A stretch of DNA of 36,537 nucleotides, taken from IMG/VR virus record IMGVR_UViG_3300042691_011145, positions 1 through 36,537 of that record. The stretch is one strand, 5' to 3'. This DNA comes from a virus. Every line of letters begins with the position of its first letter. The first letter of the stretch is position 1. Positions 1 through 36,537 of this stretch are shown here, one piece after another. The position numbers were made by a program, and so were the translations under genes. The notes under the pieces are model-generated. The model worked only from the letters and a program-made list of their open reading frames with translations. It did not search any database and was not told the DNA's origin.

Positions 1-837
1 TTGAGCCAGTTGAACCTGCGGAACCCGATGTTCCACTTGAACCTGCCGAACCACTTGAGCCAGTTGAACCTGCCGAACCACTTGAGCCAGTTGAACCTGC
101 GGAACCCGATGTTCCACTTGAACCTGCCGAACCACTTGAGCCAGTTGAACCCGATGTACCACTTGAGCCAGTTAAGCCAGATGAACCACTTGAACCTGAT
201 GACCCCGATGTACCACTTGAGCCTGTTGAACCACTTGAACCCGTTGAACCCGATGTACCACTTGAGCCAGTTAAGCCAGATGAACCACTTGAACCTGATG
301 ACCCCGATGTTCCACTTGAGCCTGTTGAACCACTTGAACCTGATGACCCCGATGTTCCACTTGAGCCTGTTGAACCACTTGAGCCCGTTGAACCCGATGT
401 ACCACTACTTCCTGTTGAACCACTTGAGCCCGTTGAACCCGATGTTCCGCTAGAGCCTGTTGAACCACTTGTTCCACTACTTCCTGTTGAACCACTTGAA
501 CCCGTGGAACCAGATGTTCCACTACTTCCTGCTGAACCACTTGAACCCGTTGAACCCGCAGAACCACTTGTTCCGCTAGAGCCTGTTGAACCACTGGTTC
601 CACTACTTCCCGTTGAACCACTTGAACCTGTGGAACCAGATGTTCCACTACTTCCTGCTGAACCACTTGAACCTGTGGAACCCGCAGAACCACTCGTTCC
701 ACTTGAACCTGTGGAGCCAGAACTTCCACTCGATCCTCTTGTTCCAGATGATCCACTTGTTCCACTACTACCATTTTGTCCTGATGTTCCACTACTTCCG
801 TTTTGGCCAGATGTTCCACTTGAACCAGAACTTCCAT
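1..837 (-). repeat. Collagen-coding Gly-X-Y repeat block 3 (partial)
   Basis: Degenerate 9-base units encoding Gly-X-Y triplets, e.g. GSSGTSGSAGSTGS, all in the frame of the gene starting at 4159. The block runs off the left edge, so its length is a minimum. Confidence 0.85.
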
Positions 838-13115: not shown

Positions 13116-13645
13116 TATACAAAATACATTTCTTCGTAGTGTAAAACATCTAATAAATTAGTAGGGTCTATTAACTGAGCCGCATTCAATAAATCGGAAT
13201 ACTCAGCTACAGATTTTGTCTGTCCCTCTCTAAATTCTTGTAAAAAATCAAAAGTTGACAAATCGTTCTGAAATACTTTTAGCGAATCTGCGTTGTATTT
13301 TTCCCAAAGATTATATTCCAAAAGATAAGCCTTATTAACAATATCAATTAAGCCCGAAAATGCTATGTTGGGTTTAACCGCCGGTAATGTTGGTGTTACA
13401 TTCCAATCTACAAGATACTTTTGTAACTTCTCGGCGTGTGTTAATTCGTTTGCCGCTTCTTTTTCAAAGAAAGCAGCTGCTCTATTATAACCAACTCCTT
13501 TGCAAAAGTTAGTAGCACTTCTATAGAAAAAATGAGCAGTATACTCATCAAACATTCTATCGGTAAGTATAACTACGGATGAACTTACCAATACTTTTGG
13601 TAATATTGCTTTTGCTGCAGTAAGTGCTTTTATATTTGTTGCCAT
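13115..13645 (-). CDS. Ferritin-like four-helix protein
   Basis: 176 residues, ATG at 13645. It matches the ferritin/Dps-like diiron pattern: E34 in MFDEYTAHFFYRS, E67 and H70 in the ExxH of AANELTHAEKL, E110 (or E115) in LLEYNLWEKY, and E140/Q142 in FREGQTKSVAEY. Spacing is close to ferritin E27, E62/H65, E107 and Q141. The length suits a bacterial ferritin subunit, and I see no signal peptide. It is translationally coupled to bS21 and embedded in the prohead gene cluster. Possible roles are iron storage or detoxification in the infected cell, or a virion component; the sequence does not decide. Confidence 0.78.
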   Translation of the reverse strand: MATNIKALTAAKAILPKVLVSSSVVILTDRMFDEYTAHFFYRSATNFCKGVGYNRAAAFFEKEAANELTHAEKLQKYLVDWNVTPTLPAVKPNIAFSGLIDIVNKAYLLEYNLWEKYNADSLKVFQNDLSTFDFLQEFREGQTKSVAEYSDLLNAAQLIDPTNLLDVLHYEEMYFV

Positions 13646-20262: not shown

Positions 20263-21873
20263 TTAACCAAGTAACCAAGTTATATTCTCTTTTTCATTAT
20301 TTTTCCCGGTTGCAATTTCGTATGGACTACCATTTGCCATATTTCCAGTATACATTCCTATATGTTTTTGAATGTGAGATGCACCTAACATACTTTTTGT
20401 TAAATCTATTCCCTCTTGACGAAGACGTAATGCTGTATTACGAACCCACAATCCGATTGCCATTGCCATAGTTAAGTCGTCATTGTATCCTTTCATTGCT
20501 TCTGCTCTTCCCGCATTCCAAATAAAAGTAAATAACTCTTCTACAAGACGAGATGATCTGATTAGAATATCTTTATTATTTATATAGGTGTCTAATGATG
20601 AGATAATAAGTGGACGAGTTCTTGACGTGGTTGAAAAACCAGCAACCATCTGTCTTTCTTCTCTATAATGTTTATTCGTTATTTGACGTTCAACATCTAT
20701 GTATCTTAAATCATTACTCATATAAAATAGGTTACCATAACCTCTGTCTATGATTTGTTGAATTGTTGCCCATCCTACATTTGAATTTTCTACTACAAGT
20801 AAAGCATTATTATATTCAGTCGCAAGTGCTGTTAAAAAGTTACCAAAATCTTTGGTTTCAAGTTTGCCACGATATTCTGCTACTTGTGAACAATCTTCAA
20901 TGTCTATGACCTGTGCCGTTGAAAAGTCACTACCATCACCTCTAGCAACGTCAGCCACAACCATATACTGACGACTATAGTTTGGATGCTCCCATACCCA
21001 AAGATTTCCATCAAATCCACGTTTTTCTACAGGCTCCATTACATAAGTTTCTTTATACCACATTAATAATTGTGGGTCAATGACAGTATCACCAGAACTC
21101 ACAAAGTCACAATCACATTCTTGTGCTGCTCCTTTTATTCCTAATACTCGTGTCTGCTCGTCTCTCCATTCTTGATTTCTTTCGGGATGGACTGTCCAAT
21201 GTAGTTTGATATTGTTAAATCCGTTTGTTTGGTTTTCACCCTCAACCCACATTTTATGAAACCAATTACCAACACCATTTGGAGTAGAAAGTACAATTGC
21301 ACTACCACCTGTTGAAAGTGTTGATTGTGCTGATAACCATATTTCATCAATGTCACGAATAAATGCTGCTTCGTCCACTACAAGAAGAGACAATGCTTCA
21401 GAACGACCTGCGTCAGGGGAACTTGCAATTGCTTTTACTTGTGAACCATTTTTTAATTTAAGTGATAGTTTGTTATCTTCAACCGATGCGTTATTTCCAT
21501 CCCTCAACCATATAGGAAGAAGGTCGTGCATGACACGAACTTTTTCAACAAGATTTTTTGCTACTGTTACTTTGGTAGCAATAACTAGTGCATTAAAATC
21601 TTCGTTAAATAGCATTTTCCAAAGTATGTATCCTGCTGAAAGTGTTGATAATCCGAGCTGACGTGATTTTAGAATGATATTAAAACGATTATTTTTAAAA
21701 TCGTTCATACAATTTTCTTGAAACGGATATAAATGAAAAGGTATCTTTCCTCGTGTCGGATGTTGAATGACACAATACTTTTTCATAAAATGTATAGGGT
21801 CTAACGCACATCTACGATATTCATCTGCGATTATCTCTTTAAGAGTTTTTTGTGGTTGACCTTGAACTGCCAT
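20263..21873 (-). CDS. 17: Terminase large subunit (gp17-like)
   Basis: 536 residues, ATG at 21873 just after the upstream stop. ATPase domain: the deviant Walker A SRQLGLST (70-77), Walker B LLVVDEA (163-169) and coupling motif LSTPNG (195-200). RNase-H-like nuclease: first acidic residue in VVADVARGDGSD (D308), second in VVENSNVG (E362), third in YNDDLTMAMAIG (D465/D466). It pumps DNA into the prohead through gp20 and cuts concatemers. Length is a little below T4 gp17 (610). The preceding gene may be its small-subunit partner. Confidence 0.96.
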   Translation of the reverse strand: MAVQGQPQKTLKEIIADEYRRCALDPIHFMKKYCVIQHPTRGKIPFHLYPFQENCMNDFKNNRFNIILKSRQLGLSTLSAGYILWKMLFNEDFNALVIATKVTVAKNLVEKVRVMHDLLPIWLRDGNNASVEDNKLSLKLKNGSQVKAIASSPDAGRSEALSLLVVDEAAFIRDIDEIWLSAQSTLSTGGSAIVLSTPNGVGNWFHKMWVEGENQTNGFNNIKLHWTVHPERNQEWRDEQTRVLGIKGAAQECDCDFVSSGDTVIDPQLLMWYKETYVMEPVEKRGFDGNLWVWEHPNYSRQYMVVADVARGDGSDFSTAQVIDIEDCSQVAEYRGKLETKDFGNFLTALATEYNNALLVVENSNVGWATIQQIIDRGYGNLFYMSNDLRYIDVERQITNKHYREERQMVAGFSTTSRTRPLIISSLDTYINNKDILIRSSRLVEELFTFIWNAGRAEAMKGYNDDLTMAMAIGLWVRNTALRLRQEGIDLTKSMLGASHIQKHIGMYTGNMANGSPYEIATGKNNEKENITWLLG

Positions 21874-22575: not shown

Positions 22576-25500
22576 TTACTTTTTCCGAATTATTTCCAAT
22601 AGTTTATTGGTATATTTTTCATACTCTTTATTAGTGTTCAAAGTTTCCTTTATGAAATCCGTTTTGAGCTTTTCTTCTTGTCTTGGTACATTTTCATGAC
22701 TATACCAAACTGTTACAAGTTCCGCGTCCTCATCTCCAAATATTGCATCAGCAGTTGGAAAGTCAGTCTGAGTATATCCACCATTTGTGAACCACTTATC
22801 TGTTTTGTTTACATTATCATTTCTACCCAATATTCTAGTTTTACCTTTTGGTAAAAAAGCACCATCTGGCTGAGCATCTGAACCAGCTAATGCACTTACT
22901 TCATTTAAAGATTCTTTTTTAGTTCTGAATGTTGCCGCTGGTCTACCATTGATTGTAGGCATATCGTGGTGATCCTTACCAATATCTTTTACTTTTACTT
23001 TTTTATTTTTGAATTTACCCATTAGTACAGTGTCTCCAACATTTACCGGTAAATTTATATCTTCTTTAAACTGAGTTTTAAATTTTACAAAAAAGGTGTT
23101 AGGACTTTGTTTTGGCTCATAATCAATTTTATCAAATTGAGCTATTTGAGATTTTGTACCTTTAAATTTTGTTCTAAAAGTGTTAGCCTCTTTTTCACTA
23201 TTAAAAATGAAAGTATAAGTTTTGTCGTGTGTATCGTATTTAATCGATTGTAAAGATGGATAACTTGCTTTTATTTTTTCTTTCATTTTAGCAAATGTAG
23301 AGTCAATCGTATCATCTACAATTGCTTCTGACATATTTTTCGATTCAACCTCACCGGTTTCCGGATTGTGATGAGCAAATGTTTTATGCCAAATTTTAGC
23401 TTTTTGTATTGCTCTGGCAGGATTTAATTTATCTATTTTTTGTTGTGGAGTTAAATTTCTACTAAAGATACCAGTAGTAGGTACATAATGTTCTTCCGAA
23501 GATTTTACCTTATCATTTGAATTTTTTTTTTGAGTTGATTCGGTATATATCTTTTTTTGCAGTTTACCATACTCACGAAGTAGTATTCCTGCTACAGAAT
23601 TTGCTTTATTTTCAATTTCAGAGCCCGTTTTTCCGTCATTCTCTATATTCTTTATGAGATTCATTTCATATTGTTTATGATGAACCATCTCATGTGCAAT
23701 AGTTCTTAAAACATCTGCTATCAGTCTTCCCTCCATAACAACATATATTTCTTTAATGTGCGGAATATACCCACCTAATGAAGGTTGTTCTGCTTCTGGT
23801 AAAGATTTGTTACTTAAAATTTTTACACGGGGCCTTTCTTTTAATTTCAGTCTTTCTGAACACCATTCAACAAACTCTTTTACAAGTTTTAAACGAGAAT
23901 GTGATTGAGCTTCGCTGGCGTCTTCTTTTAACATTTTAGAAAAAGATTTTGCCATATCAGCTGCTGCATCTTTTGTTTTATCTATTTCTTGTTCTCTATC
24001 AGACCCTTCTTTCAATTTTTTGAACATAACAGCTTTTTCTAACATCTCAGCATATTGCTCTTCAGTCATCTCGTATTTTTCAATCTTTGGTGCAGCTTTT
24101 GAAGCTATCAACATAGCCGAAGCTAATGAATTTCTTGATGCTTTTTTCATGTCCTCTTCACCAACTTTTTTTCCTTCAACTAATATGGTTTTATTTAAAT
24201 AATTGAAATGTTCGGACATCATCTTATATTCTGCTCTTTCACTTTCAGATATTGCGCCTAACAATGAATGCATTCCTATTGCACCACCGCCAATCTTTTC
24301 AGCATCTGGAGCGTGTAATCCTAATGATTCTAATGTACCATGACCTATCATTTCACCTCCAAAATACGAAATACCATTTACTATTTTACCATGCAATCCC
24401 ATTGCGTCAAATGCATAATGTAATGCTTCGGTTGGTGCGTGTGCTACACTAGCTGCAGTGTGGCCTATCTTTTCACCAACGTGAAGAACATGATGCCCAA
24501 CTTCAGCTGCTGCGTGACCGGCTACTTTACCGGCCGCGGCTGCACCTTTTCCAGCGGCAGCAAGTCCTTGTGCTGTCATTTCTCCTATTTTTCCTTGAGT
24601 AGACAACCATTGCATACCATTATGTGCAGCATCTGATAAAGCTTGAGCACCTTTAGCTAAAGTTGATGTAGTAGCTGATGCAGCTGTACTTCCTCCAACT
24701 TTAGTCATCAATCCTTTTAAGAACGGGCCACCGTAAGCAGCAGCTACTGACATAGCTGCCATCTTCATCATACTCACGCAAGCTTTTTTATTTGCTTCAT
24801 GTTCTTTAATTACATCATCTTTTGCTTTAACTTTCTTTGTTCTTGGATTATCAGAACTTTCTGGTTTATGACTATCAAAATGGTCATTAGGAACCTCTAT
24901 TTCTGATTGATAAAAATCGTGTTTAGCTTTTTCCTTTTCATACTTTTTAGTTTCTTTCTCATATTGTTTATCGTTTTTAAACTTAGGGTCGTTACGATCG
25001 GGTTCTTTTGGTTGTTCTTTGTCTACCCATACTTTTTTGGGCATTCCAAACATATTTCTTTCAGGCTTACCTGTTTTAGGATCTCTAACTACTACTTCCT
25101 CTTGAAAATCACCACGTGTCACGTGTTCACTATGTTCTTTTCCTTGTGAATCTTTCCAAGTTCGTTTTTGTGACAAAGGATGTCTAAGATGTGCTAAATT
25201 ATTTACAGCACTTCCTGTTCTTTTAACTGTGTCTACTATATGATGTACTGTATGTGCTACATTATGCGGAAATGCTTTAGCAAATTTGACCATAGCATTG
25301 TCCTGATTTGTTACAAACTTTGTAATACCAGCCGCCATCTTATCTGCTAATTTTCCTACATTTTTAGGATTAAATCCTTTTACAAGACCAAGTGTTAGTA
25401 CATTTGCTACACCACCTAAAGTATGACTTACAGCTCTTGTTACCAATCTTGTTGCATTTCCAAATATTGCTCTAGCTATATTTGATTTTGATTTTTTAGT

Positions 25501-28500
25501 ACCATCTGGGTTTTTAAATCCAAAGGCTTCGTTTTTTAATGTATCAAAAGCTTCAGCTTCTTCTTTTTCCATTTGAGCTTTTGCAGCATTTTCTCTGTCA
25601 GCTATCTCTCTCGCTTTTTCAGCTTTCTTTCTCTCTTCTGGTGATAGTTTTGCTAATCTTTCCTCAGCGTCTTTTTCAAATTTAGATTCTTTTTCCTTTT
25701 CTGCTTTTTCTTTTTTTTCTTTCTCCTCAGCTTTATCCGCATCTGATTTAAATTCTCCTGCTTTTATTGCCTGTGGATTTTGAGCTCTATCTTGTGGTGA
25801 TGGTGCGGGTGGTTTTTGTTGACCTTTTTTGCCAGGTTCTTTTCCTGCACCAGCTGCTGCCGGTTGTCCGGCAGCAGGAGCTGCTCCAGCGGCTGCAGAT
25901 GCGCCCGGTGCTGCAGGTTTAGGTGCGGCTCCTGCACCTTTTTCTTTTCTGTTTTCTTCTTCAGCTTCGGCAGGTGTTAGTGGTCTAATTTTACCATCTT
26001 CACTTTTGTGAGTTATAGGGCCAGATTTATCTTTTGCATATCTACCATAACCACGATATACTAAACCCATTTTTTCCGCTTCTGAGGGTTCTTTTTCTTT
26101 TTTAGGTTTTCCACCCTCCTCATCCGCTTCATCAATAGAATGCGTATCTATGTATTCTTGAACTTCTTCTTGTATTATATTGAATAAAAATGGTACTAAA
26201 GGAGAATCATTATCATTAAAAACATGATACCTAGCTATCGGATTATAAATTTCTGAATCTTCTTTTAACGATTGAATTTTTCTAGTGTCTTTTGTATTAA
26301 CAGATTTTATTTCTTCTGCTACGACCGATTCTCCGAAATAATCGGAAGCCCATTCATTAAAGATAGTTTCATCTACCAAAGAAATATTTTCATTAACCGA
26401 TTTTTTTTCTTTTGAATTTAGTTTCTTTCTCATATTTTTTACACGTTTTGGGTTAGGTGCGCCATTTATATATCCGGCCGGCGATGTTAACCCAGTAAAT
26501 ACTCCACCCGGAAAATTCTCATTTTTGGTTTTCAATGCTTTTTTAATTTCATCCTCTGCTGCTCTTCTTACTTTACTACCTTTTTTATATTTTAATGCAC
26601 TGCTAACATAAATTTTATTACCAGTCTCTGGATTTTTTATTTTAGTTTTTAGTACATCCTTTAATTTTTTACGAGTATCTTTATCTAAACTTACCGATTT
26701 TTCTTTTTTATCTTTCTTACCGGTGTCAGTTTTTTTAGTTATTGCTTTTGCTGTTTTTTTTTGTTTTTCAATTTTTTCTATTTCTACTTTAGCTTCTTCT
26801 GCTTTGGTGGTTTTTTTAACTATTTTATTATATATGTCTTTGTTAAATTTACCATATACTTGTGTAAATATATCTCTTTTTTCACTATCTGATAAAAATT
26901 CATTACCGAACGTAGCACGTAATTGTGTTCCACTTATATTACCACCATTAACTTTGAGTTGCATTTCAGGTGCTATTATATAATAACCTTCTTCTTTATA
27001 ATTTTTATGTGTTCCTTTAGGCGTTTTATCATAATTTTTAAAGTATTTACCACCTTTGTCTAATCGTTCTGCATCTTTCTGACTAACAGCCGTGACATAT
27101 GCCGTGTCTTTGCCCGCACCTTTTAATACTTCTACGGGCTGATATGGATTTTTAACTTGAACAACATGGTCTTTCGGTACATCAAACATAGATGTAATTA
27201 TTTCCTGTTTTTCACTAAATTTAAATGGTGAACGGACTTCATCTGTTACATCTGATGACGCTATATACACATTATCTTTTCCAAATCTTTTGACAAGTTC
27301 TTGATAAACACTATAGTGACCTGCATGAAATGGTTGAAATCTTCCAGCAAATACTGCTATAGTTCTCTTTGGTTGCTTTTCTGCTTTTTTCTTTTCGTCT
27401 TTTTTTGCTTCTTTTTTATATTTTTCTTTTGGCTTTGCTTCTGGTTTTTCGTCTTTTGGTTTGTCAAATTTGAAAGTACCATTTATTTGATTAATAGGAG
27501 CAAATGCACCTGTAAACTTATATGGCTTTCCCTTATACATAAAAACCACACCTTCGGAAGGAACTACATTGTCCATTCCAATTTCTTTCAGCCTATCAAG
27601 TTCTTTACGTAATTTTGCTAATTTAGCAGGATCTTTACTATCCTTTATTGCTTTTATAGCTGTAGCTACATCTTTTTTTACCTGTTTAGATGTTTCGGGG
27701 TTATTGGATGCAACAAAATTAGTAGCTCTTTTTAAAGTCTGTGCTCCAGCTTTTAAGAATGTATTCTCAATAGGTCTTATCATTGACTTTTGAGACTTTT
27801 CTAAAGAAGATTTTTCGTAGTTTCTAAACCATGCTTTTTTCTTATCGTCTTGAAATCCATTTACACCAAATCCTTTATCACCATCTGCCCACCTTTTAAT
27901 AAGTCCACTCTTTTCAGATTTTGTAAATTTAAAGCCGGATTTTTTTTCTTCTTTTGAAATTTCACGTTCCCACCATTTTTTTCTATAATCTGACAATTTT
28001 GACTTATCAGATAAACCAAATTCTTTTGCCGATTTATCTAAATTAGAATTATACTCTCGTGCTTTTTTCTTGTTCTCTTGCTCATCGGCACTACTAAATA
28101 CAATAGATTGTGCACCAGCTATGCCAAATGTTTTTTGTCTATCTGCTCCTACCTTTTTTACTGCTTCTCCAAAATCTCTACCCTCTTGTGCATTACGACC
28201 AGTTTCATTACCATCTTTATCGTAAGATATAGTACCATGCATTACAAGTACACTCTTTCCATATGGTATTACATTCTGAGTATCTGGTAGAATTACTTCC
28301 AAACTCATAAACTTAGACCCATTTCCAAACATTTTTTTAACTTGTTCTGAGCTAAGTTTTTGTACAGCTGCTTCAAGGTCTTCTGCTGCACCTGTAAACG
28401 CTTTTTCTATACCACCACGACCAGCAAATTGCTTTCCTATTCCATCCCTGTCTAATGCATTTTCTCCACGATTTCGGACATGACCTTTATTCCTAGCAAA

Positions 28501-28713
28501 TACGATTTTACCATCTTTAACGCTAAAAGCGATATTTTGTCCATCTAATTTTTCAGTAACAGGTGCTTCTTTATCCAAACCACCAATAAGACCTCGGTTA
28601 ATCATTTCTTTCATGTCACCAAAAGTCAAATCTGCATCCTCAAATGGATGGGCTAAGTGGCCTGCGGCTCCTCCTTCGTTTAACAGCATAATTTCTTCAT
28701 TTTTGAAATCCAT
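22576..28713 (-). CDS. Giant multi-enzyme protein: KxDG ligase-like + HxGH NMNAT-like + HExxH metallopeptidase-like
   Basis: 2045 residues from ATG 28713; ATG 28689 (MLLNEGGAAGH) is an attractive alternative start. Residues ~14-410 resemble a covalent nucleotidyltransferase of the RNA/DNA ligase class: EKLDGQN with candidate Lys55, ARNKGH (73-78), FMSLEVILP (135-143), SEGVVFMYKG (386-395) and KF at 399-400. Residues ~450-625 form an NMN-adenylyltransferase-like domain: AGRFQPFHAGH (456-466) and ISGTQLR (593-599). A Lys/Glu- and Ala/Pro-rich region follows (~630-1500). Residues ~1600-1720 look like a zinc metallopeptidase: HEMVH (1674-1678), with E1699 or E1701 as third ligand. Several (L/I)-x-E sites lie between domains. 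Role unknown; RNA/NAD-related repair or an ejected head protein are possibilities. Confidence 0.85.
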   Translation of the reverse strand: MDFKNEEIMLLNEGGAAGHLAHPFEDADLTFGDMKEMINRGLIGGLDKEAPVTEKLDGQNIAFSVKDGKIVFARNKGHVRNRGENALDRDGIGKQFAGRGGIEKAFTGAAEDLEAAVQKLSSEQVKKMFGNGSKFMSLEVILPDTQNVIPYGKSVLVMHGTISYDKDGNETGRNAQEGRDFGEAVKKVGADRQKTFGIAGAQSIVFSSADEQENKKKAREYNSNLDKSAKEFGLSDKSKLSDYRKKWWEREISKEEKKSGFKFTKSEKSGLIKRWADGDKGFGVNGFQDDKKKAWFRNYEKSSLEKSQKSMIRPIENTFLKAGAQTLKRATNFVASNNPETSKQVKKDVATAIKAIKDSKDPAKLAKLRKELDRLKEIGMDNVVPSEGVVFMYKGKPYKFTGAFAPINQINGTFKFDKPKDEKPEAKPKEKYKKEAKKDEKKKAEKQPKRTIAVFAGRFQPFHAGHYSVYQELVKRFGKDNVYIASSDVTDEVRSPFKFSEKQEIITSMFDVPKDHVVQVKNPYQPVEVLKGAGKDTAYVTAVSQKDAERLDKGGKYFKNYDKTPKGTHKNYKEEGYYIIAPEMQLKVNGGNISGTQLRATFGNEFLSDSEKRDIFTQVYGKFNKDIYNKIVKKTTKAEEAKVEIEKIEKQKKTAKAITKKTDTGKKDKKEKSVSLDKDTRKKLKDVLKTKIKNPETGNKIYVSSALKYKKGSKVRRAAEDEIKKALKTKNENFPGGVFTGLTSPAGYINGAPNPKRVKNMRKKLNSKEKKSVNENISLVDETIFNEWASDYFGESVVAEEIKSVNTKDTRKIQSLKEDSEIYNPIARYHVFNDNDSPLVPFLFNIIQEEVQEYIDTHSIDEADEEGGKPKKEKEPSEAEKMGLVYRGYGRYAKDKSGPITHKSEDGKIRPLTPAEAEEENRKEKGAGAAPKPAAPGASAAAGAAPAAGQPAAAGAGKEPGKKGQQKPPAPSPQDRAQNPQAIKAGEFKSDADKAEEKEKKEKAEKEKESKFEKDAEERLAKLSPEERKKAEKAREIADRENAAKAQMEKEEAEAFDTLKNEAFGFKNPDGTKKSKSNIARAIFGNATRLVTRAVSHTLGGVANVLTLGLVKGFNPKNVGKLADKMAAGITKFVTNQDNAMVKFAKAFPHNVAHTVHHIVDTVKRTGSAVNNLAHLRHPLSQKRTWKDSQGKEHSEHVTRGDFQEEVVVRDPKTGKPERNMFGMPKKVWVDKEQPKEPDRNDPKFKNDKQYEKETKKYEKEKAKHDFYQSEIEVPNDHFDSHKPESSDNPRTKKVKAKDDVIKEHEANKKACVSMMKMAAMSVAAAYGGPFLKGLMTKVGGSTAASATTSTLAKGAQALSDAAHNGMQWLSTQGKIGEMTAQGLAAAGKGAAAAGKVAGHAAAEVGHHVLHVGEKIGHTAASVAHAPTEALHYAFDAMGLHGKIVNGISYFGGEMIGHGTLESLGLHAPDAEKIGGGAIGMHSLLGAISESERAEYKMMSEHFNYLNKTILVEGKKVGEEDMKKASRNSLASAMLIASKAAPKIEKYEMTEEQYAEMLEKAVMFKKLKEGSDREQEIDKTKDAAADMAKSFSKMLKEDASEAQSHSRLKLVKEFVEWCSERLKLKERPRVKILSNKSLPEAEQPSLGGYIPHIKEIYVVMEGRLIADVLRTIAHEMVHHKQYEMNLIKNIENDGKTGSEIENKANSVAGILLREYGKLQKKIYTESTQKKNSNDKVKSSEEHYVPTTGIFSRNLTPQQKIDKLNPARAIQKAKIWHKTFAHHNPETGEVESKNMSEAIVDDTIDSTFAKMKEKIKASYPSLQSIKYDTHDKTYTFIFNSEKEANTFRTKFKGTKSQIAQFDKIDYEPKQSPNTFFVKFKTQFKEDINLPVNVGDTVLMGKFKNKKVKVKDIGKDHHDMPTINGRPAATFRTKKESLNEVSALAGSDAQPDGAFLPKGKTRILGRNDNVNKTDKWFTNGGYTQTDFPTADAIFGDEDAELVTVWYSHENVPRQEEKLKTDFIKETLNTNKEYEKYTNKLLEIIRKK

Positions 28714-28741: not shown

Positions 28742-29824
28742 TTACTTAACGTGTTCTATAAAGTTCAAAGCAGATTCTATTACATCATCCATGTCATAAT
28801 ACTTATACTCCGCTAACCTTCCTCCAAAATATACATTGGACAGTTTATCAGCATCACTCTTATATTTTTTGTATTTTTCGTTGTTTTCTAAATCATTTAC
28901 AGGGTAATAGGGGTCGCTTACATTTACTTTATATTCAACAGGATATTCGTAAGTTACCCACGTTACATCGGATGTAACGAATTCAAAATGTTTGTGCTCT
29001 ACTACTCTGGTATATGGTATATCTTTGTTAGTGTAATTTACAATAGCACATCCTTGAAAATTGTCCGTGTATTTTTTTTCATGCGTAAATTCAACTGTTT
29101 TGTATTCTAATTGACCATATTTGTAATCAAAGAATTTATCAATAGGGCCGGTGTAAATTAAATTCTTATAACTCGGTAATTTGTTTGTAAAAAAATCTGT
29201 GTTTAGTTTTACCTCAATACCATCTAACAATTTTTCAAATATTTGAGTATACCCTCCTACTGGTATTCCTTGATACTTATCATTAAAGTAATTATTGTTA
29301 TATGTAAATCTTACAGGTAATCTGTTTATAATTTCTTTTGGTAAATCCTTTGCTTCCTTTCTCCATTGCTTTTCAGTATATCCTTTTATTAATTTATCAT
29401 ATACTTCTTTTCCAACTAGTTTTAATGCCTGTTCTTCTAAATTTTTAGGATTCTCTACATTCAGTTTTTGTTTTGAAATGATATCCATAGCCTCTTGTGG
29501 TGTTGTAACACCCCAAAGTTGATTAAATGTCCACATATTAAATGGTAATGAGTATAACTTACCATCATAATTAGCTATGGGATTTAATATAAAATTATTA
29601 AACTCTACAAATTGATTTATCCATTTCCAAACTTTTTCATTTGAAGTATGAAATATATGGGGGCCGTAATAGTGAACATTTATACCATCTCTATTTAATG
29701 TATAACAATTTCCACCAATATGGTTACGCTTTTCTATAACACAAACATTATATCCTTCTTTTTTTAGTTCATGTGCACATATTGAACCAAAAAATCCTGA
29801 CCCTACTATTAGATAGTCATACAT
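28742..29824 (-). CDS. glf: UDP-galactopyranose mutase
   Basis: 360 residues, ATG at 29824, 4 bases after the fucose synthase stop. The FAD-binding Rossmann start has GSGFFG (8-13), VCVIEKRNHIGGNCYT (27-42) and then HYYGPHIFHTSNEKVW. This flavoenzyme converts UDP-Galp to UDP-Galf, the donor for galactofuranose in bacterial surface glycans. Length is typical (~365). It is the last gene of the glycan cassette. No obvious dedicated galactofuranosyltransferase is visible, so one of the neighbours, an enzyme outside the window or the host may use the product. Confidence 0.93.
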   Translation of the reverse strand: MYDYLIVGSGFFGSICAHELKKEGYNVCVIEKRNHIGGNCYTLNRDGINVHYYGPHIFHTSNEKVWKWINQFVEFNNFILNPIANYDGKLYSLPFNMWTFNQLWGVTTPQEAMDIISKQKLNVENPKNLEEQALKLVGKEVYDKLIKGYTEKQWRKEAKDLPKEIINRLPVRFTYNNNYFNDKYQGIPVGGYTQIFEKLLDGIEVKLNTDFFTNKLPSYKNLIYTGPIDKFFDYKYGQLEYKTVEFTHEKKYTDNFQGCAIVNYTNKDIPYTRVVEHKHFEFVTSDVTWVTYEYPVEYKVNVSDPYYPVNDLENNEKYKKYKSDADKLSNVYFGGRLAEYKYYDMDDVIESALNFIEHVK

Positions 29825-29828
29825 AAAT

Positions 29829-30728
29829 CTATTTTCTTAAAGTGTTATAGTTTTCGTTAAACCACTTTATAGTTTTTTCCAATCCATCTTCTATTCTAGT
29901 AAATTTATAATCACCTATTATACTTAACAATTTTTTATTATCCGATGGTTTTCTAAGTTGTCCATCTGGTTTGTCTGTTCTGTATATTATCTCACCTTTA
30001 TAGTTCATGCATTCGGTTATGATATTTACTATATAAGAAATGGGATACTCTACTGAATTTGATATAACCACAGGCGTTGTATCTGTATAATTATCTATTA
30101 ATAAATTTGTTATTTCTGCTACATCTTTTGAGTAAACGAATTCTCGCATAGGTGTTCCAGTTCCCCATATTTCTAATGGCGTTTCATTTATTTTGGATAA
30201 ATAACATTTATGTATTAACATTGGTATTACATGACCATTTTCTAAATGAAAATTATCATTTTCACCATATAAATTACAAGGTATTACTGAAAAATATTTA
30301 GTACCATATTGTTGATTGTATGCTTGTATTTGAACATCTGCCATTCTCTTAGCATAAGAATATCCAAAATTTGATGTATGTGGTGGGCCCAAATGAATTT
30401 TAGTTTCATCTATGGGATATTCAATTTCATTGGGAAAAATACAAGTTGACAAAAAACAAACCATTTTCTTGACATTGTTTTGATAGCAAGCATCTATTAC
30501 ATTTGTGTTAATTAAAAAATTATCATTAAAAAAGTTTACTGGATATTTTATATTAGCTAATATTCCACCAACTTTTGCAGCGGTATGAATTACTACATCT
30601 GGTTGATGTTTTTGCATTATACTAAAAGTATTTTCTTTTACTCTTAAATCAATTGATGAATTGACTTTAATTGCATTTTCAAATTTTGAACCTACTAATC
30701 CGGTTCCTCCTGTTACTAGTTTTTTCAT
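29829..30728 (-). CDS. fcl: GDP-L-fucose synthase
   Basis: 299 residues, ATG at 30728. Extended SDR with GGTGLVG (7-13), AAKVGGILAN (50-59), STCIFP (94-99) and the catalytic YSYAK (123-127), then PCNLYGENDNF. It performs epimerisation and reduction of GDP-4-keto-6-deoxymannose to GDP-L-fucose. The preceding enzyme, GDP-mannose dehydratase, is not in this window and must come from elsewhere in the phage or the host. Two fucosyltransferase-family genes (GT11, GT10-like) lie upstream in the same cassette, so donor and users are encoded together. Confidence 0.92.
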   Translation of the reverse strand: MKKLVTGGTGLVGSKFENAIKVNSSIDLRVKENTFSIMQKHQPDVVIHTAAKVGGILANIKYPVNFFNDNFLINTNVIDACYQNNVKKMVCFLSTCIFPNEIEYPIDETKIHLGPPHTSNFGYSYAKRMADVQIQAYNQQYGTKYFSVIPCNLYGENDNFHLENGHVIPMLIHKCYLSKINETPLEIWGTGTPMREFVYSKDVAEITNLLIDNYTDTTPVVISNSVEYPISYIVNIITECMNYKGEIIYRTDKPDGQLRKPSDNKKLLSIIGDYKFTRIEDGLEKTIKWFNENYNTLRK

Positions 30729-30729
30729 T

Positions 30730-31497
30730 TTAGATTATAATAAAATTTTTACCATATATGTCATAGAAATCTTTAAACCCATCGGGACCAAACCACAAGT
30801 TTGGTGCGAATATTTTTTTATTTTTATGGTTAGATAACCAAGCTCCCCACCAACTAAATGTACTGTTAGCTATTATATGATGATGGCATTTTGATATCAT
30901 ACACATATCCACTTCTAAATCATTACTGAAATAGTCAATGTTTTCAGCTTTTATGTTTTGTTTACACCACTCTATGTCATTTGAAAAACATAAAAATTGT
31001 ACATCATCAAAATAATTCATAGCAATATTGTAGTAATCCAAACTACACAAGGGATGTATTTTTGGATATGCCATATAATCACCTCTTCTGACATGAATTG
31101 ATACAAGAGTTTTATTTTCATATTTTTTTAGTTTATCTAAAACATTATCTTGTATATGGTTTTTGAATGTAAATTCTTTTCTTATTATATCTTCGCAATG
31201 TGTAAAATATTTTTCTGTTTGAAAGTATCCTGCAAAATTAGTATCTTCTTTTATGTCAAAAACTTTTTCGTCAAAATGAAAATGTTTTTCGCAATATGTT
31301 TGCTTATACTTAAATTCGTCAACAAATACATATTCGTTCATATCAAAAAAATCAAATAAATAAGATTGCTTTCTCATTTGATTTTCAAAAAGTATATCGC
31401 ATCCTAATTTATATTTCACCCCAACCAATTGTGCATATTGAAACATTTGATTACCCAATTGTCCTGCTTTTCCTATTACATCGTGTGTTATGTTCAT
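30730..31497 (-). CDS. GT11 alpha-1,2-fucosyltransferase-like enzyme
   Basis: 255 residues. The ATG at 31497 overlaps the GT25 stop (ATGA). GT11 motifs are GQLGNQMFQYA (12-22), SIHVRRGDY (133-141, the GDP-fucose binding motif) and HHIIANSTFSWWGAWL (206-221). GT11 enzymes usually add alpha-1,2-fucose to galactose. Length is slightly short but all motifs are present. No membrane segment, so it is probably cytoplasmic and would act on phage proteins before assembly or on lipid-linked host glycans. Confidence 0.9.
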   Translation of the reverse strand: MNITHDVIGKAGQLGNQMFQYAQLVGVKYKLGCDILFENQMRKQSYLFDFFDMNEYVFVDEFKYKQTYCEKHFHFDEKVFDIKEDTNFAGYFQTEKYFTHCEDIIRKEFTFKNHIQDNVLDKLKKYENKTLVSIHVRRGDYMAYPKIHPLCSLDYYNIAMNYFDDVQFLCFSNDIEWCKQNIKAENIDYFSNDLEVDMCMISKCHHHIIANSTFSWWGAWLSNHKNKKIFAPNLWFGPDGFKDFYDIYGKNFIII

Positions 31498-32183
31498 AAC
31501 TTCATATTTGAATTATATCTACCATCTATAGATGGTTTATAGTCTACTACTCTATCTTCTAAATTTGAAAAACTTTTTCTTTGCCATGCTAAGTTTTTTA
31601 AGCACATATAAATTTTATTATCTTGAGATTCTTCTGATAAAGATGCTACATATCCATCAAAAAATGGAAATGCTTTAAAGTTTATGTTCAATAATGTATC
31701 GTAAAATGTATGATTAACTGCATAAGCATGTGTAGTTAATGAACCCAAAGATTTTCCTATGTATTCTGTTTCTTTTTTATACGCCAATGGATTAGTACCT
31801 ATATAAAACATATTCCAATCAAACTTTTTTAAGTCATTTAAAGCATGATTTAATTCTTTTAAAATACCTGTGTGGAATACGACATCATCTTCAAATACTA
31901 AAACATTTTCATATCCCATTATTTTTGCTCTTAAAATTACATTTATATGAGATAACGTACATGATTTTGTAAACCTAGCATATTTTGGCCTATCATCGTG
32001 ATATGCGTTACAACCATCCTTTACCAAGGATAAATTTTCTTGCTCAGTTAGAGTTATAGCTCTAAACCTTTCTGCTTTTATTCCGTATAAAGAAAATTGT
32101 TCCTCGATATCTATTTTTCTATCAATTCTACTTTCTAAATTTATATAGAATATTTTTTTAAAAAAATCAAATGGATTGTCCAT
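31494..32183 (-). CDS. GT25-family glycosyltransferase
   Basis: 229 residues, ATG at 32183, overlapping the GT10-like gene by 17 bases. YINLESRIDRK (13-23) is the GT25 N-terminal signature, followed by SCTLSHINV (74-82) and the donor/metal motif VFEDDV (96-101). GT25 contains bacterial LPS beta-galactosyltransferases, animal procollagen galactosyltransferases and a mimivirus collagen glucosyltransferase. The acceptor here cannot be read from sequence; a collagen-like protein is encoded in the same late region. The normal ~100-residue C-terminal part is present but weakly conserved. Confidence 0.85.
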   Translation of the reverse strand: MDNPFDFFKKIFYINLESRIDRKIDIEEQFSLYGIKAERFRAITLTEQENLSLVKDGCNAYHDDRPKYARFTKSCTLSHINVILRAKIMGYENVLVFEDDVVFHTGILKELNHALNDLKKFDWNMFYIGTNPLAYKKETEYIGKSLGSLTTHAYAVNHTFYDTLLNINFKAFPFFDGYVASLSEESQDNKIYMCLKNLAWQRKSFSNLEDRVVDYKPSIDGRYNSNMKL

Positions 32184-32997
32184 CCTTAAAATAATTTAAG
32201 TATACATAATCTTCAAATGTAGAAAATTGTTTTACTTTTTCAAAATTTTCTTTAACTGCTTCTATTTTTGAGTAATATAATTCTTCATTTATAGAACGAA
32301 TATCAAAATCTTCTTCCAAAAAGATTATACCATCTTTATTGAAAAAATCTGTTATTTTCTTGCTTCCTAAATAGATTGGTATCGTTCCTGTTGCAAAGCA
32401 ATCTAATACTTTTTCAGAGAATAATCCATCATATACTCCATTTTCAATGGCGACTGAAAACATATAATCCACTAATCCTTCTTCTTTATTAGTTATTCCC
32501 CTCCAATATCCACCATACATATCTATGTCATCTTTGAGTTTATCAGCCCATTTTAATCTAGTTATATGACCTTCGCACATTGTTTTAGCGGAAGTTATCA
32601 TTGATACTAATTTAGTTTTAGGATGAACTTGTTTGTCTTTAATCCATGTTCCTGTAGGTGGTGCAAATTTAAATTTTGGATGTAAAGACAATAATTCATA
32701 ATCATGTACAAAAAATGTATCAAAAATTTCCACATATTTTTCCCATTCATTTTTAACACCCTCGAATATATGCGGTATGATAGCTTTAGATTCGCAAATA
32801 GCTCCATATTTTTTTTTAGATAATGTATCGTTGATAACTGTTGGAATTGCGAAATTCATATAAAAAGAATCTTCATACAAATGTGTGTCACAATTCCATT
32901 TCCAATTAACATAAGATGGTACTTGACCATGCGTTGAATATCCTAAATTTCCTCCCCACATATGAGAAAAAGGGCTGCCGTATATATTAAATTCCAT
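32167..32997 (-). CDS. GT10-like (alpha-1,3-)fucosyltransferase
   Basis: I choose ATG 32997, which overlaps the upstream TGA (TGATG); the longer frame begins at a TTG 6 bases earlier. 276 residues. The C-terminal signature YMFSVAIENGVYDGLFSEKV (178-197), then CFATGTIPIYLGS (200-212), matches the GT10 donor-binding region (FxxxxEN ... EK ... AGxxPVYLG). The N-terminal half is divergent. GT10 enzymes transfer fucose to GlcNAc in Lewis-type glycans. A different GT-B family with the same C-terminal logic cannot be excluded. Confidence 0.72.
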   Translation of the reverse strand: MEFNIYGSPFSHMWGGNLGYSTHGQVPSYVNWKWNCDTHLYEDSFYMNFAIPTVINDTLSKKKYGAICESKAIIPHIFEGVKNEWEKYVEIFDTFFVHDYELLSLHPKFKFAPPTGTWIKDKQVHPKTKLVSMITSAKTMCEGHITRLKWADKLKDDIDMYGGYWRGITNKEEGLVDYMFSVAIENGVYDGLFSEKVLDCFATGTIPIYLGSKKITDFFNKDGIIFLEEDFDIRSINEELYYSKIEAVKENFEKVKQFSTFEDYVYLNYFKDGQSI

Positions 32998-34907
32998 CAC
33001 CAATAAAGTAATTTAGTTGATCCTGAGTTATATTCTTTTTCTTTACAAGAAAATACTTGTTTAAAATCGTATGAATTTAAACTATCTATATTATAGATAC
33101 TACTAATTTCATTGTAGCATATATAACCATGTTTAGAATTATTAAGTATATTATTTATGTAATACATTTGATATTCACGTGTACATTCTGATATTGCAAA
33201 ATTACTAATTACAATATCGTATTTTTGTTCGTATTTTTTATTAGTACTAGCTTCATAAAAATTTACATTATTAATATTACACTCTTTTAAATATCTTTTA
33301 GTAAGAGGTAAAACTTCTACCAAGTCTACAATTGTATAACTAGCTACATTAAAAATTTTGTTTATCAATACACATTGTCCACCATATCCAGCGCCAATTT
33401 CTATAATATTTTTATTATCTAAAGACCCAAACAATTCTACCAATTCGGTTAATACTTTAGCGTATCTTAATGAACTAGGTGAAACTAATCCTATGAGTCC
33501 ACCAAAATTATAAAGTTCTGGATTACCTATAACATCATTTGAACGAATACCATCTAATAGTTTAGACATGAACTTAGGAGTCATTAAAAAACTATCCATT
33601 ATGTATGGTATATAATAGTCTCTAGCTGCATCAATAGTTACGTGTTCTAAAACTTTTTTATATTCATGATTTTGTCTGAATGTTGAAAAAATATTATTAT
33701 CATGTTCTGAATTTTTACATATATTTCTGTATTCAGCATATTGTTCTGTATCTGTTATACTACTCGGATACTCTTTTTTAACAACATCCAAAGTATTGGA
33801 AATTTCTAAAGTGTTTTCATGATATGATTCTAATAAATTAGTCCAATGTTTTCCTATAATGTCTATAGAAAAATTATCTTTTATTAAATTTTTTGCTTTG
33901 TCTCTAAGTTGTTGTTTTTCTTCCGGATGATTATCTAAATGAAGCAATATATTTTTTATGTTTTCGGTATATGACATATAAGGTATATCACACGATACCC
34001 TTTCTTCAATCATTCTAGTCATATCAGTTTCAGGTGGAAACTCTATAAATACACATCCATCTGAGAAATATTCTGGAATAGCTCCTAAAGGATATGTAAT
34101 TACTATTACTCCCGCTGCTATAGCTTCTGCTACTGCACATGAGAATGTATCTTTGTAAAGACAACTACTTCCGTCATATAATGGAAAAATGAAATAGTCG
34201 TGTTGAACCATTTTATCAAATAATGCCTGTTTATCTATTGAGTTTTTATGATTCGTGTAATCTACACTATACATTTTTTCCCACCCAAGTTCATCTAAAA
34301 CATTCTGAGCTACAACTCCACCTCTACTCCATTGTGCATGAAAAATGCAAGAATTCTTTTTCCTTGTGAGATTTTTGTTGATAGAATTATCCATCAAATC
34401 CGTCATTATAGGATTTGGTATGATAACAGATTTATGAAATTGCGTTTCTTTTGTAAAATTATTTAGGATAATCTCTTTGGTTTGATTATAAGACCAATTT
34501 GATATATTGACGCAGCTAAATTTTAAATTATACTTATTTACATATTGTATCATTTCATATATACCATATGCCCAAGCCATATGATACCAATATATTAAAC
34601 CTGTTGTTACTTTAAATGGTATTTTATCATAATCGGTAAACCATAAACACGATACTAAAAAATCTACTTCAGAATCTACCAATCCTTCATAATCAAAAGC
34701 AGTATATTTTACACCCCTACATTGTTTTTTATCTGTATTTTCTAATACAATAGTTACATCATAATTATTTTTTGCCAAGTATTCCGCGACCATTATAACT
34801 GATTGGTCTGTACCGGATGATGGTGCTCCTCCATAACGAATCGTATCTCCATTTAAAATTTTAGGTCTTATTTCAGTACCCGGTATTAGGAATACAATTT
34901 TTTTCAT
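32997..34907 (-). CDS. Fusion: GT4-type glycosyltransferase + sugar O-methyltransferase
   Basis: 636 residues, ATG at 34907. The N-terminal ~380 residues are GT-B/GT4-like: GGAPSSGTDQSVIMVAEYLA (26-45), FPLYDGSSC (241-249) and FSCAVAEAIAAG (255-266) with Glu261 as the expected donor-binding acid. The C-terminal ~190 residues form an AdoMet methyltransferase: IEIGAGYGGQ (502-511), VDLVEVLPLTKRYL, then NFAISECTRE. This resembles the NanM-type 'putative sugar O-methyltransferase' family. The pairing suggests that one polypeptide adds a sugar and methylates the glycan, often a capping step. Confidence 0.82.
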   Translation of the reverse strand: MKKIVFLIPGTEIRPKILNGDTIRYGGAPSSGTDQSVIMVAEYLAKNNYDVTIVLENTDKKQCRGVKYTAFDYEGLVDSEVDFLVSCLWFTDYDKIPFKVTTGLIYWYHMAWAYGIYEMIQYVNKYNLKFSCVNISNWSYNQTKEIILNNFTKETQFHKSVIIPNPIMTDLMDNSINKNLTRKKNSCIFHAQWSRGGVVAQNVLDELGWEKMYSVDYTNHKNSIDKQALFDKMVQHDYFIFPLYDGSSCLYKDTFSCAVAEAIAAGVIVITYPLGAIPEYFSDGCVFIEFPPETDMTRMIEERVSCDIPYMSYTENIKNILLHLDNHPEEKQQLRDKAKNLIKDNFSIDIIGKHWTNLLESYHENTLEISNTLDVVKKEYPSSITDTEQYAEYRNICKNSEHDNNIFSTFRQNHEYKKVLEHVTIDAARDYYIPYIMDSFLMTPKFMSKLLDGIRSNDVIGNPELYNFGGLIGLVSPSSLRYAKVLTELVELFGSLDNKNIIEIGAGYGGQCVLINKIFNVASYTIVDLVEVLPLTKRYLKECNINNVNFYEASTNKKYEQKYDIVISNFAISECTREYQMYYINNILNNSKHGYICYNEISSIYNIDSLNSYDFKQVFSCKEKEYNSGSTKLLYW

Positions 34908-34913
34908 AAATAA

Positions 34914-36179
34914 TTAATTTGGTATACACACAAAATTTTCTTGTCTAGTTCCCCATTCACCATTTTTGTAATGCGGATACATAACCCATTTCTTAGGTGG
35001 ATCTATACTCATAAATACAAAAGTATATGAATTATTATATAGTTCAAATATATCTTTGTTTTTATGAAAATCAAAATCTATTCGTTTAATAGTTTCTTTA
35101 TCTGATTCTACTCCAAGTGCTATGAAATCTATTTCTCCTTTTTGTAAATCATTTCGTAATATTGAGATATCCCATATACATTTAACTATGTATCTAGTTT
35201 CTGCTTTTACAAATTGTTCTTCCCATGGTGTTGGATTAGGTGGTTCTTTTACATCTAATGTATATTTTTGTATTTTACATTTTTTAAAATCAAATCCACC
35301 ATACACTTCATAATCATGTAAAGTCCTAATATCTCCAAGACCATAGATACCCATATCTATACCATAGTCTTCTGTACCAAACAATTGTCTTACTTTATTC
35401 CTAGCATAAATGTCTCTCTCACCACTAGTTTTTTTAGTTTCACTTTTAGTACCATGGTCTTCCCAATGTTTTGGCCTATATGATCTAGTATACTCATGCC
35501 ATAGTATCATTCTGTAAGGACTAAAAAAATCATACCCATGTGTATATGCCCGTAAACTCAAAGAAGTCTCTTCGGTATAACCTCCAAAATAAATGTCAGG
35601 ATCATACGGAACTTCTTTTATAAATTTTCCTTCAGTAAACAAAAAATGTCCACTAATAGTTCTAGCTCTTATTATCCAATTTAAAGATTCATAATTCTGA
35701 ATAAACCATGGCATACTCATCAACAGTTTGTCATCGCTAAATTCGTACTGAGACATTAGACATGGAACTTTATTCCATTCTTCTTCAGGAGTTGTTGGAT
35801 CAAATGGAGTGCAATATGTAGTTATTATTGGTTTATCTGATAATAGTAAAGCTTGTTTATAATCTTCTAACAATATCTCATCCCAATGTTTTACAAATCT
35901 ATGATGAGAATCAATTTGTAATGTATATTTTTCATTCTTATATAAGAGATTAGTTTGATTTCTTGCCCATCCAAGTCCTTCACTTTTTGAATAGTGAAAT
36001 TTTTTAATTCTAAATTGTTTATTCTTATCGTATCTATTTATATCTTCTGTTTCATCGTGTTGCCAGCATATACCAAAAACTAATCTTTTTGGGTATTTTG
36101 CTTTTGCTAGCATATCTTCAATAGTCGGAATCAATTGATTATCTCTATAAGAAGCTATTTGTACAAATATTTTATCCAT
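34914..36179 (-). CDS. GT60-like polypeptide GlcNAc transferase
   Basis: 421 residues, ATG at 36179. IFVQIASYRDNQLIPTIEDM (4-23) is the start typical of the GlcNAc (Skp1-GlcNAcT, GT60) family. It is followed by GLGWARNQTNLLY (68-80), LQIDSHHRF (87-95, a DxH version of the metal motif), SGHFLF (176-181), and YFGGYTEETSLSLRAYTHGY (197-216) with WHEY (227-230). Characterised GT60 enzymes attach GlcNAc to hydroxyproline of Dictyostelium Skp1 or to Thr of trypanosome mucins. First gene of the cassette, immediately after a Thr/Pro-repeat protein. The acceptor is inferred. Confidence 0.85.
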   Translation of the reverse strand: MDKIFVQIASYRDNQLIPTIEDMLAKAKYPKRLVFGICWQHDETEDINRYDKNKQFRIKKFHYSKSEGLGWARNQTNLLYKNEKYTLQIDSHHRFVKHWDEILLEDYKQALLLSDKPIITTYCTPFDPTTPEEEWNKVPCLMSQYEFSDDKLLMSMPWFIQNYESLNWIIRARTISGHFLFTEGKFIKEVPYDPDIYFGGYTEETSLSLRAYTHGYDFFSPYRMILWHEYTRSYRPKHWEDHGTKSETKKTSGERDIYARNKVRQLFGTEDYGIDMGIYGLGDIRTLHDYEVYGGFDFKKCKIQKYTLDVKEPPNPTPWEEQFVKAETRYIVKCIWDISILRNDLQKGEIDFIALGVESDKETIKRIDFDFHKNKDIFELYNNSYTFVFMSIDPPKKWVMYPHYKNGEWGTRQENFVCIPN

Positions 36180-36192
36180 AACTAATTTTTTT

Positions 36193-36223
36193 TAAATATA
36201 ACCATTTTTTTCTTTTTTACAAA
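36193..36223 (-). promoter_or_regulatory. Bacteroidota-type promoter before the glycan cassette
   Basis: Minus strand: TTTG (36220-36223), 19-nt spacer, TATATTTA (36193-36200). This fits the Bacteroidota consensus TTTG-N(17-23)-TAnnTTTG at all but the last base. It lies 13 bases upstream of ATG 36179 in the 60-base gap after the Thr/Pro-repeat gene. It is the only site here with a good -33 element. Confidence 0.5.
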
Positions 36224-36239
36224 AAAAATACAAATTTAA

Positions 36240-36537
36240 TTACGCGTTACAAGCTGCGGCGTTACAATCTGCTACACCTGTCAATGTTCCTACGTTAGCT
36301 GGACCCGGATCTGTGCCATCACTGCTATCAACAGTAAAGCAAACTCCATTATCTGAGTACGTAGCCCCTACGGATAATGTTTGAGATGTTATTACCTGAC
36401 CCGGTCCAGTAACACAAAATGTAACACTATATGCATTAAATGCTGGTGTAGGTGTAGGAGTACGAGTTGGTGTAGGTGTAGGAGTACGAGTTGGTGTAGG
36501 TGTAGGAGTACGAGTTGGTGTAGGTGTAGGAGTACGA
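36240..36537 (-). CDS. Thr/Pro-repeat protein with Cys-containing C-terminal domain (N-terminus beyond window)
   Basis: The last 98 residues of a gene entering from the right edge; stop TAA at 36240-36242. The visible part starts with tandem TRTPTPTP repeats, a mucin-like linker. A ~67-residue domain follows: AFNAYSVTFCVTGPGQVITS, TLSVGATYSDNGVCFTV, ending GVADCNAAACNA. It has four Cys that could form two disulfides. Such P/T linkers and small Cys domains occur in phage tail or fibre proteins, so a virion surface protein is likely. The Thr-rich linker is a plausible O-glycosylation substrate for the cassette that follows. Confidence 0.75.
   Translation of the reverse strand, partial: RTPTPTPTRTPTPTPTRTPTPTPTRTPTPTPAFNAYSVTFCVTGPGQVITSQTLSVGATYSDNGVCFTVDSSDGTDPGPANVGTLTGVADCNAAACNA
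36445..36537 (-). repeat. 24-bp tandem repeat encoding TRTPTPTP
   Basis: About 3.9 copies of a 24-bp unit (GGTGTAGGTGTAGGAGTACG then AGTT on the plus strand), nearly identical, continuing past the right edge. Each unit encodes 8 residues. Copy number may vary by slippage. Confidence 0.9.

Follow-up and report, generated by a model that had tools for sequence, protein, structure and literature searches.

We analyzed a 36.5-kb fragment of the virus record IMGVR_UViG_3300042691_011145 (positions 1 to 36,537; this whole stretch is called the window) and found in its late region seven contiguous sugar genes directly following an open reading frame (ORF) with Thr/Pro repeats. The first of these genes codes for a GT60-family protein whose predicted fold is nearest to that of mucin-initiating polypeptide N-acetylgalactosamine (GalNAc) transferases, and GT60 genes recurrently pair with Thr/Pro (T/P) tracts in viral contigs. 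In our judgment the genes probably make up a phage-encoded, cytoplasmic, mucin-type protein O-glycosylation system that acts on the T/P protein. A preliminary description of this DNA had pointed to seven contiguous glycan genes beside a T/P-repeat protein in the late operon; all of them were found, co-oriented on the minus strand (36179-28742), between the T/P ORF and the packaging/head operon, with intergenic gaps of at most 60 bp and overlaps between several genes. Families were identified by Pfam and NCBIfam profile matches:

36444..36537, minus strand: 24-bp tandem repeat encoding RTPTPTPT (3.9 copies, 100% matches; the contig ends within the array)
36240..36536, minus strand: T/P-repeat protein, C-terminal 98 aa, the proposed acceptor (RTPTPTPT repeats; 60 bp upstream of the GT60 gene, same strand)
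34914..36179, minus strand: GT60-family protein resembling polypeptide N-acetylhexosamine (HexNAc) transferases, the proposed initiator (PF11397, CAZy GT60, 8.6e-64, 216.6 bits against a cut-off of 21)
32997..34907, minus strand: GT4-type glycosyltransferase fused to a sugar O-methyltransferase (weak GT4 matches below the Pfam cut-offs; TIGR04371 69 bits, cut-off 44)
32167..33003, minus strand: GT10-like protein, fucosyltransferase family (PF00852 3.1e-6, 27.4 bits, just over the cut-off of 23.9)
31494..32183, minus strand: GT25-family glycosyltransferase (PF01755 8.8e-15)
30730..31497, minus strand: GT11-family protein, fucosyltransferase family (PF01531 5.5e-31)
29829..30728, minus strand: GDP-L-fucose synthase-like epimerase/reductase (PF01370 1.8e-48; NF047922 4e-71, 240 bits, below the cut-off of 500)
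28742..29824, minus strand: UDP-galactopyranose mutase (UGM), which makes UDP-galactofuranose (TIGR00031 2e-120, 402 bits, over the cut-off; PF03275 1.3e-73)

Downstream of its repeats the T/P ORF encodes a Cys-containing C-terminal domain of ~65 aa. As in mucin-type systems, a Thr/Pro tandem-repeat domain is linked here to a putative initiating polypeptide transferase, and this linkage recurs in relatives. We counted as a T/P tract any 30 aa in which T+P made up at least 60% and each at least 25%, and as adjacency a tract-bearing ORF <500 bp upstream on the same strand. A tract lay directly upstream of 14/37 viral GT60 genes in a first sample and 29/80 in a second (36–38%), the latter drawn with a profile and, as it overlaps the first in contigs, not fully independent of it. 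In a sample chosen by the mutase (UGM sample) this held for 12 of the 14 GT60 genes. Other genes on the same contigs followed a tract in 22/567 and 54/994 cases (4–5%) and, in the UGM sample, in 24/1149; the Fisher P values range from 1e-9 to 1e-17 and are overstated, because they assume independent contigs. Many of the records are fragments. Terminase-relative loci without GT60 had a tract in none of 80. Among UGM loci, tracts were present in 15/18 with GT60 versus 7/61 without it. (TP)4 DNA occurred in 41 of 55 GT60-containing records versus 6 of 41 GT60-less ones (p = 4e-9), and the reversed (TP)4 pattern, used as a composition control, matched in one record only. When viral contigs were drawn by the T/P DNA pattern alone, the top Pfam families of the next gene were GT60 and 2OG-Fe(II) oxygenase (3/65 each); no other glycosyltransferase was among the next-gene families listed, and both top families were absent from those listed for 65 random genes of these contigs.

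The pairing was found in 35 of 88 non-redundant GT60 genes (window included), and, mapped on the GT60 tree, its state switches at least 15 times, compared with a mean of 28 for shuffled labels. The T/P proteins, counting the window fragment, fall by single linkage into ~13 unrelated N-terminal families, so that the feature they have in common is the tract. Judged from these two sequence comparisons, the pairing has arisen repeatedly and was not merely inherited.

The AlphaFold model of the window GT60 protein (pLDDT 92) had polypeptide GalNAc-transferases at Foldseek ranks 1–48. In VIA-align the best 29 entries were mucin-type polypeptide GalNAc-transferases, with Z 18.7–22.6 and a root-mean-square deviation of 3.2–3.9 over 260–282 residues; other GT-A enzymes followed after a gap, with Z of at most 16.2. 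This comparison spans residues 1–328, the C-terminal ~90 residues lying outside, and within it the model has a polypeptide HexNAc-transferase fold. Residues D90-S91-H92 and H228 are invariant among the 88 non-redundant GT60 homologues, and we take H228 to be the equivalent of the downstream metal-ligand His of the GT27/GT60 fold. The DSH motif aligned to the DAH motif of GalNAc-T7 in the sole PDB profile match, which is non-significant (E = 0.37), and the window GT60 as a single sequence had no match in the PDB. The modelled GT60 thus comes nearest to mucin-initiating polypeptide GalNAc-transferases and retains their DSH metal motif, a common fold being no proof of activity. To our knowledge, neither a lipid-linked sugar nor DNA has precedent as a GT60 target. 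By analogy with the family, the donor sugar is probably N-acetylglucosamine (GlcNAc).

Next we considered which cassette genes accompany GT60 elsewhere. Near window-like viral GT60 genes (49 loci with enough flank, summed over two samples that share some contigs) we found a GT4 homologue in 47, the mutase in 38, GT25 in 30 and GT11 in 21, whereas bacterial chromosomal GT60 loci contained GT4 or mutase in 0/66. GT60, GT4 and UGM therefore form a phage module, to which the other glycosyltransferases are variable additions. The GT4 homologues in viral loci are mostly without the methyltransferase. No GDP-mannose dehydratase, the fucose-precursor enzyme, is present in the window, and in relatives its profile PF16363 matched in only 2/18 records, so the supply of GDP-fucose probably leans on the host. 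The fucosylated, possibly O-methylated glycan envisaged in the preliminary description is plausible, but these decorations vary in relatives around the constant core and the window lacks the precursor enzyme. Several divergent T4-like records (G036, G037, G041, G046 and G027) have the cassette upstream of their terminase, and GT60 is absent from the 21 whole records of the phages closest by terminase (83–100% identity); hence the cassette has been gained and lost among T4-like phages. The record whose terminase is identical to that of the window ends before the cassette position. The cultured phages found with GT60 were three Xanthomonas/Stenotrophomonas jumbo phages (34% identity), which lack the cassette. 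At the cassette position, near terminase relatives (L009 1923-3852, L028, L040 and L059) have two tandem epimerase-like genes upstream of a homologue of the 2045-aa protein described below; these are probably another swappable sugar module.

The proposed pathway would operate late in infection. GT60 would add HexNAc (GlcNAc by family precedent) to Thr residues of the T/P-repeat protein encoded upstream, and GT4 would extend it, most likely with galactofuranose (Galf) from the UDP-galactofuranose made by the mutase. Further hexose and fucose would be attached by the GT25, GT11 and GT10-like enzymes, and a sugar would be capped by the methyltransferase fused to GT4. Since a signal-peptide-like N-terminus was found in 0/38 T/P proteins and GT60 itself is free of strongly hydrophobic segments, the reaction is predicted to be cytoplasmic; among all cassette proteins, the only strongly hydrophobic 19-residue window (mean 1.87) is in the GT4 protein. 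Acceptor and enzymes alike are probably cytoplasmic, and the product would then exit the cell in the virion, most likely as a tail-region glycoprotein. Tail fibre genes neighboring T/P and GT60 genes agree with this location: some viral GT60s have tail fibre genes upstream of them, and in L086-L090 a Gly-X-Y tail fibre gene directly precedes the T/P gene. The product may be a stiff sugar-coated stalk serving in shielding, receptor contact or protease resistance.

Several observations weigh against such a pathway. The glycan is a prediction from the genes, and so are its sugars, the acceptor threonines, the chemistry, the virion location and the biological role. The T/P gene of the window is visible solely as its last 98 codons, no homologues of its C-terminal domain were found among the GT60 and relative loci compared, and none of the T/P proteins examined has a virion annotation. 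For over 60% of viral GT60 genes the position directly upstream holds no T/P tract; the genes found there instead show no Ser/Thr enrichment, and general Ser/Thr-richness was rejected as the linkage signal. Among the phage T/P proteins sampled, over 90% lack an adjoining GT60, so T/P tracts also serve other purposes. Bacterial chromosomes often carry GT60 homologues, but T/P adjacency is rare there (4/86), and this enzyme family may thus act on different acceptors as well.

The four bacterial GT60 genes with a T/P-tract gene directly upstream are L348, L349, L357 and L343 (Sphingomonas, Vicinamibacterales, Planctomycetaceae and Jiulongibacter); the Sphingomonas one has a glycoside-hydrolase-like domain. 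In the viral contigs drawn by T/P pattern (L123-L242), the 2OG-Fe(II) oxygenase gene directly following 3/65 T/P proteins, as frequent as GT60, possibly marks a separate prolyl-hydroxylation pairing. For the system under study, prolyl hydroxylation before glycosylation, as in Skp1, was not adopted, PF13640 being present in 1/26 GT60-containing records. A GT60-less glycan island (mutase, GT2+GT4 fusion, UDP-GlcNAc 2-epimerase and several GT2) in L261, L263, L266, L268 and L269 lies a few kb from an opposite-strand Thr/Pro protein of 801-931 aa and is perhaps another mucin-like system with a different initiator.

The cassette could instead alter a host surface polysaccharide (lipopolysaccharide (LPS)/O-antigen or capsule), for example as a superinfection block, with the T/P neighbor being a fibre that merely shares the neighborhood. 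The GT25, GT11, GT10, GLF and fucose-synthase families are frequent members of LPS and capsule loci, the Pfam name of the GT25 family is 'LPS biosynthesis protein', and glycan genes come and go in this phage region. We nevertheless consider this explanation unlikely: the Pfam scan of the cassette revealed no flippase, polymerase, ligase, lipid-carrier glycosyltransferase or gtrA/gtrB-like membrane protein (the DNA beyond the contig end being out of view), and the flippase and membrane-bound lipid-linked glucosyltransferase of gtrABC-type O-antigen seroconversion are accordingly missing from it. Moreover, the predicted GT60 fold is that of a polypeptide transferase, and the T/P linkage tracks GT60 and not UGM cassettes generally (15/18 versus 7/61, see above). 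Of the earlier proposal that the glycan is built on phage fibres rather than on host LPS, we would keep a probable protein target with GT60 as the initiator, on the strength of T/P co-occurrence and the predicted fold, but not the collagen-like acceptor.

This acceptor belongs to a further, still less likely explanation, in which another virion protein, either the collagen-like Ser/Thr fibre or other tail fibres, is glycosylated and the T/P protein is incidental. The collagen-like protein is located at the far end of the window:

2..4159, minus strand: collagen-like Gly-X-Y Ser/Thr-rich protein, 3′ end off the contig (PF01391 6.9e-117; not adopted as acceptor)

The cassette is indeed upstream of this gene, as first described, but ~24 kb away with the whole head operon between them. 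Besides the window, G042, G046, G094 and G054 combine GT60 with long Ser/Thr Gly-X-Y runs, the Gly-X-Y tail fibre gene of L086-L090 stands just before the T/P gene, and several GT60 genes without a T/P tract come after tail fibre genes. However, the association between Ser/Thr Gly-X-Y runs and GT60 is not significant (6/50 GT60-containing versus 2/41 GT60-less records, p = 0.29), collagen-type homologues are present in the GT60-less relatives G003 and G018, and Ser/Thr-rich Gly-X-Y runs within ±10 kb were found in 0/41 and 0/78 GT60 loci. The co-occurrence in relatives that the preliminary description had expected of both proteins thus applies to the T/P protein and not to the Gly-X-Y fibre. 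The ORF (4159-2) comprises 285 Gly-X-Y triplets, mostly GSS, GTS, GST and GSA, of which at least 284 lack Lys; as the runs are nearly devoid of Lys (and of Pro), the analogy of GT25 with collagen galactosyltransferases, which need hydroxylysine, has no acceptor residue here and was abandoned. Mimivirus glycosylates its own Gly-X-Y protein on hydroxylysine via L230, a GT25-related hydroxylase-GT25 enzyme; in contrast, the window shows no lysyl hydroxylase and practically no Lys in its Gly-X-Y runs. With no significant GT60 association and practically no Lys in its Gly-X-Y runs, the collagen-like fibre was not adopted as the acceptor.

Modification of DNA bases by the cassette's glycosyltransferases, as known from T4, is highly improbable: T4-like phages do glucosylate their DNA, but we rejected this explanation as GT60 shows no clear link with PF00303 (thymidylate synthase/hydroxymethylase; 4/26 GT60-containing versus 1/8 GT60-less records, the window itself being a fragment), the predicted GT60 fold is that of a polypeptide transferase, and we know of no precedent for DNA glycosylation by GT60, GT11 or GT10. 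Viral glycosyltransferases that hypermodify DNA with diverse glycans, as mentioned in PMC12619734 with reference to Pyle et al. 2024, count in its favor.

All annotated genes of the window are on the minus strand and are transcribed in the direction 36537 to 1. The T/P ORF is followed by GT60, GT4+methyltransferase, GT10-like, GT25, GT11, GDP-fucose-synthase-like, UDP-galactopyranose mutase and 2045-aa protein genes, then by gp17 terminase, gp20 portal, gp21 protease, gp23 capsid and neck genes and finally the collagen-like ORF. The homologues of gp17, gp20, gp21 and gp23 mark a T4-like late region. Two of the neighboring genes are:

22576..28713, minus strand: 2045-aa multidomain protein with a nucleotidyltransferase domain (PF01467 4e-7, phrog_395 6e-13; outside the cassette)
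20263..21873, minus strand: gp17-like large terminase (PF03237 and phrog_2; genome context)

As the terminase is ~53% identical to those of Flavobacterium phage immuto and Microcystis phage Mel-JY01, we assign the window, which is of freshwater origin, to a T4-like phage; its host is uncertain, possibly a member of the Bacteroidota. The gene of the 2045-aa protein begins 28 bp downstream of the cassette, and homologues are found upstream of the terminase in relatives. The protein is a mosaic: an N-terminal KLDGQ resembles, by eye, the active-site motif of ATP-dependent ligases, residues ~443-641 form a cytidylyltransferase/NMN-adenylyltransferase-like domain, and close to the C-terminus stands AHEMVHH (HExxH, zinc-metallopeptidase-like, likewise by eye). 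A ferritin-like domain protein (PF00210, 1e-16) is encoded at 13115-13645, within the head operon amid scaffold-region genes. Promoter and terminator scans of the window gave matches at chance level only.

Judged by analogy, the nearest known kinds are protist mucin glycosylation, which works alike with the same enzyme family, and phage virion glycosylation, of which the T/P system is likely a member. In Dictyostelium and T. cruzi, mucin-type glycosylation starts with GT60 enzymes, which are related to animal GalNAc-transferases (PMC3188802, PMC8724618). In T. cruzi mucins, a GT60 enzyme makes alpha-GlcNAc-Thr, to which beta-Galf is added in core 2 (PMC3769586); Galf on GlcNAc-Thr matches the GT60 and UGM core of the phages. 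The protist enzymes (pp-alpha-GlcNAcT in T. cruzi) also have PF11397, a Thr-rich mucin acceptor and no ricin-type lectin domain. However, they act in the Golgi on secreted proteins, whereas the phage system is predicted to be cytoplasmic and is encoded in one operon; fucose, O-methyl decoration and GT4 belong to the phage cassette, whose sugars and linkages are predicted from genes. The animal GT27 polypeptide GalNAc-transferases are the closest solved fold (Z up to 22.6), have a DSH-type metal motif, and several of their solved complexes contain mucin peptides. The phage GT60 differs from them in its ~15% identity, its lack of a lectin domain, its CAZy family and probably its donor, GlcNAc. 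In mycobacteriophages, too, phage glycosyltransferases decorate virion proteins (Freeman et al. 2023, cited in PMC12619734), the acceptors being C-termini of capsid and tail-tube subunits; the account in PMC12619734, as far as it bears on these phages, mentions no Thr/Pro mucin-like acceptor or mucin-initiator. Our literature search yielded no published account linking GT60 or PF11397 with phage.

Few cases of virion glycosylation are known in phages, and the acceptor can rarely be guessed from sequence. A mucin-initiator fold repeatedly paired with a Thr/Pro repeat in metagenomic phages offers a testable enzyme–acceptor pair, namely a short TPTP peptide (RTPTPTPTRTPTPTPT) and one soluble enzyme, and a ready marker for glycosylated phages. 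The T/P system would be a cytoplasmic, bacterial-compatible route to mucin-type O-glycans, and the phage GT60 bears on the origin of the protist GT60 enzymes. Tentatively, and with somewhat less assurance than we attach to the glycosylation system of the window, we suggest that T/P protein, GT60, GT4 and UGM may constitute a widespread, self-contained phage mucin system repeatedly assembled around unrelated tail-region proteins. Prokaryotic viruses would then, for the first time, be seen to encode mucin-type O-glycoproteins in their entirety, and the system would be a possible reservoir for the mucin-initiating GT60 enzymes of protists.

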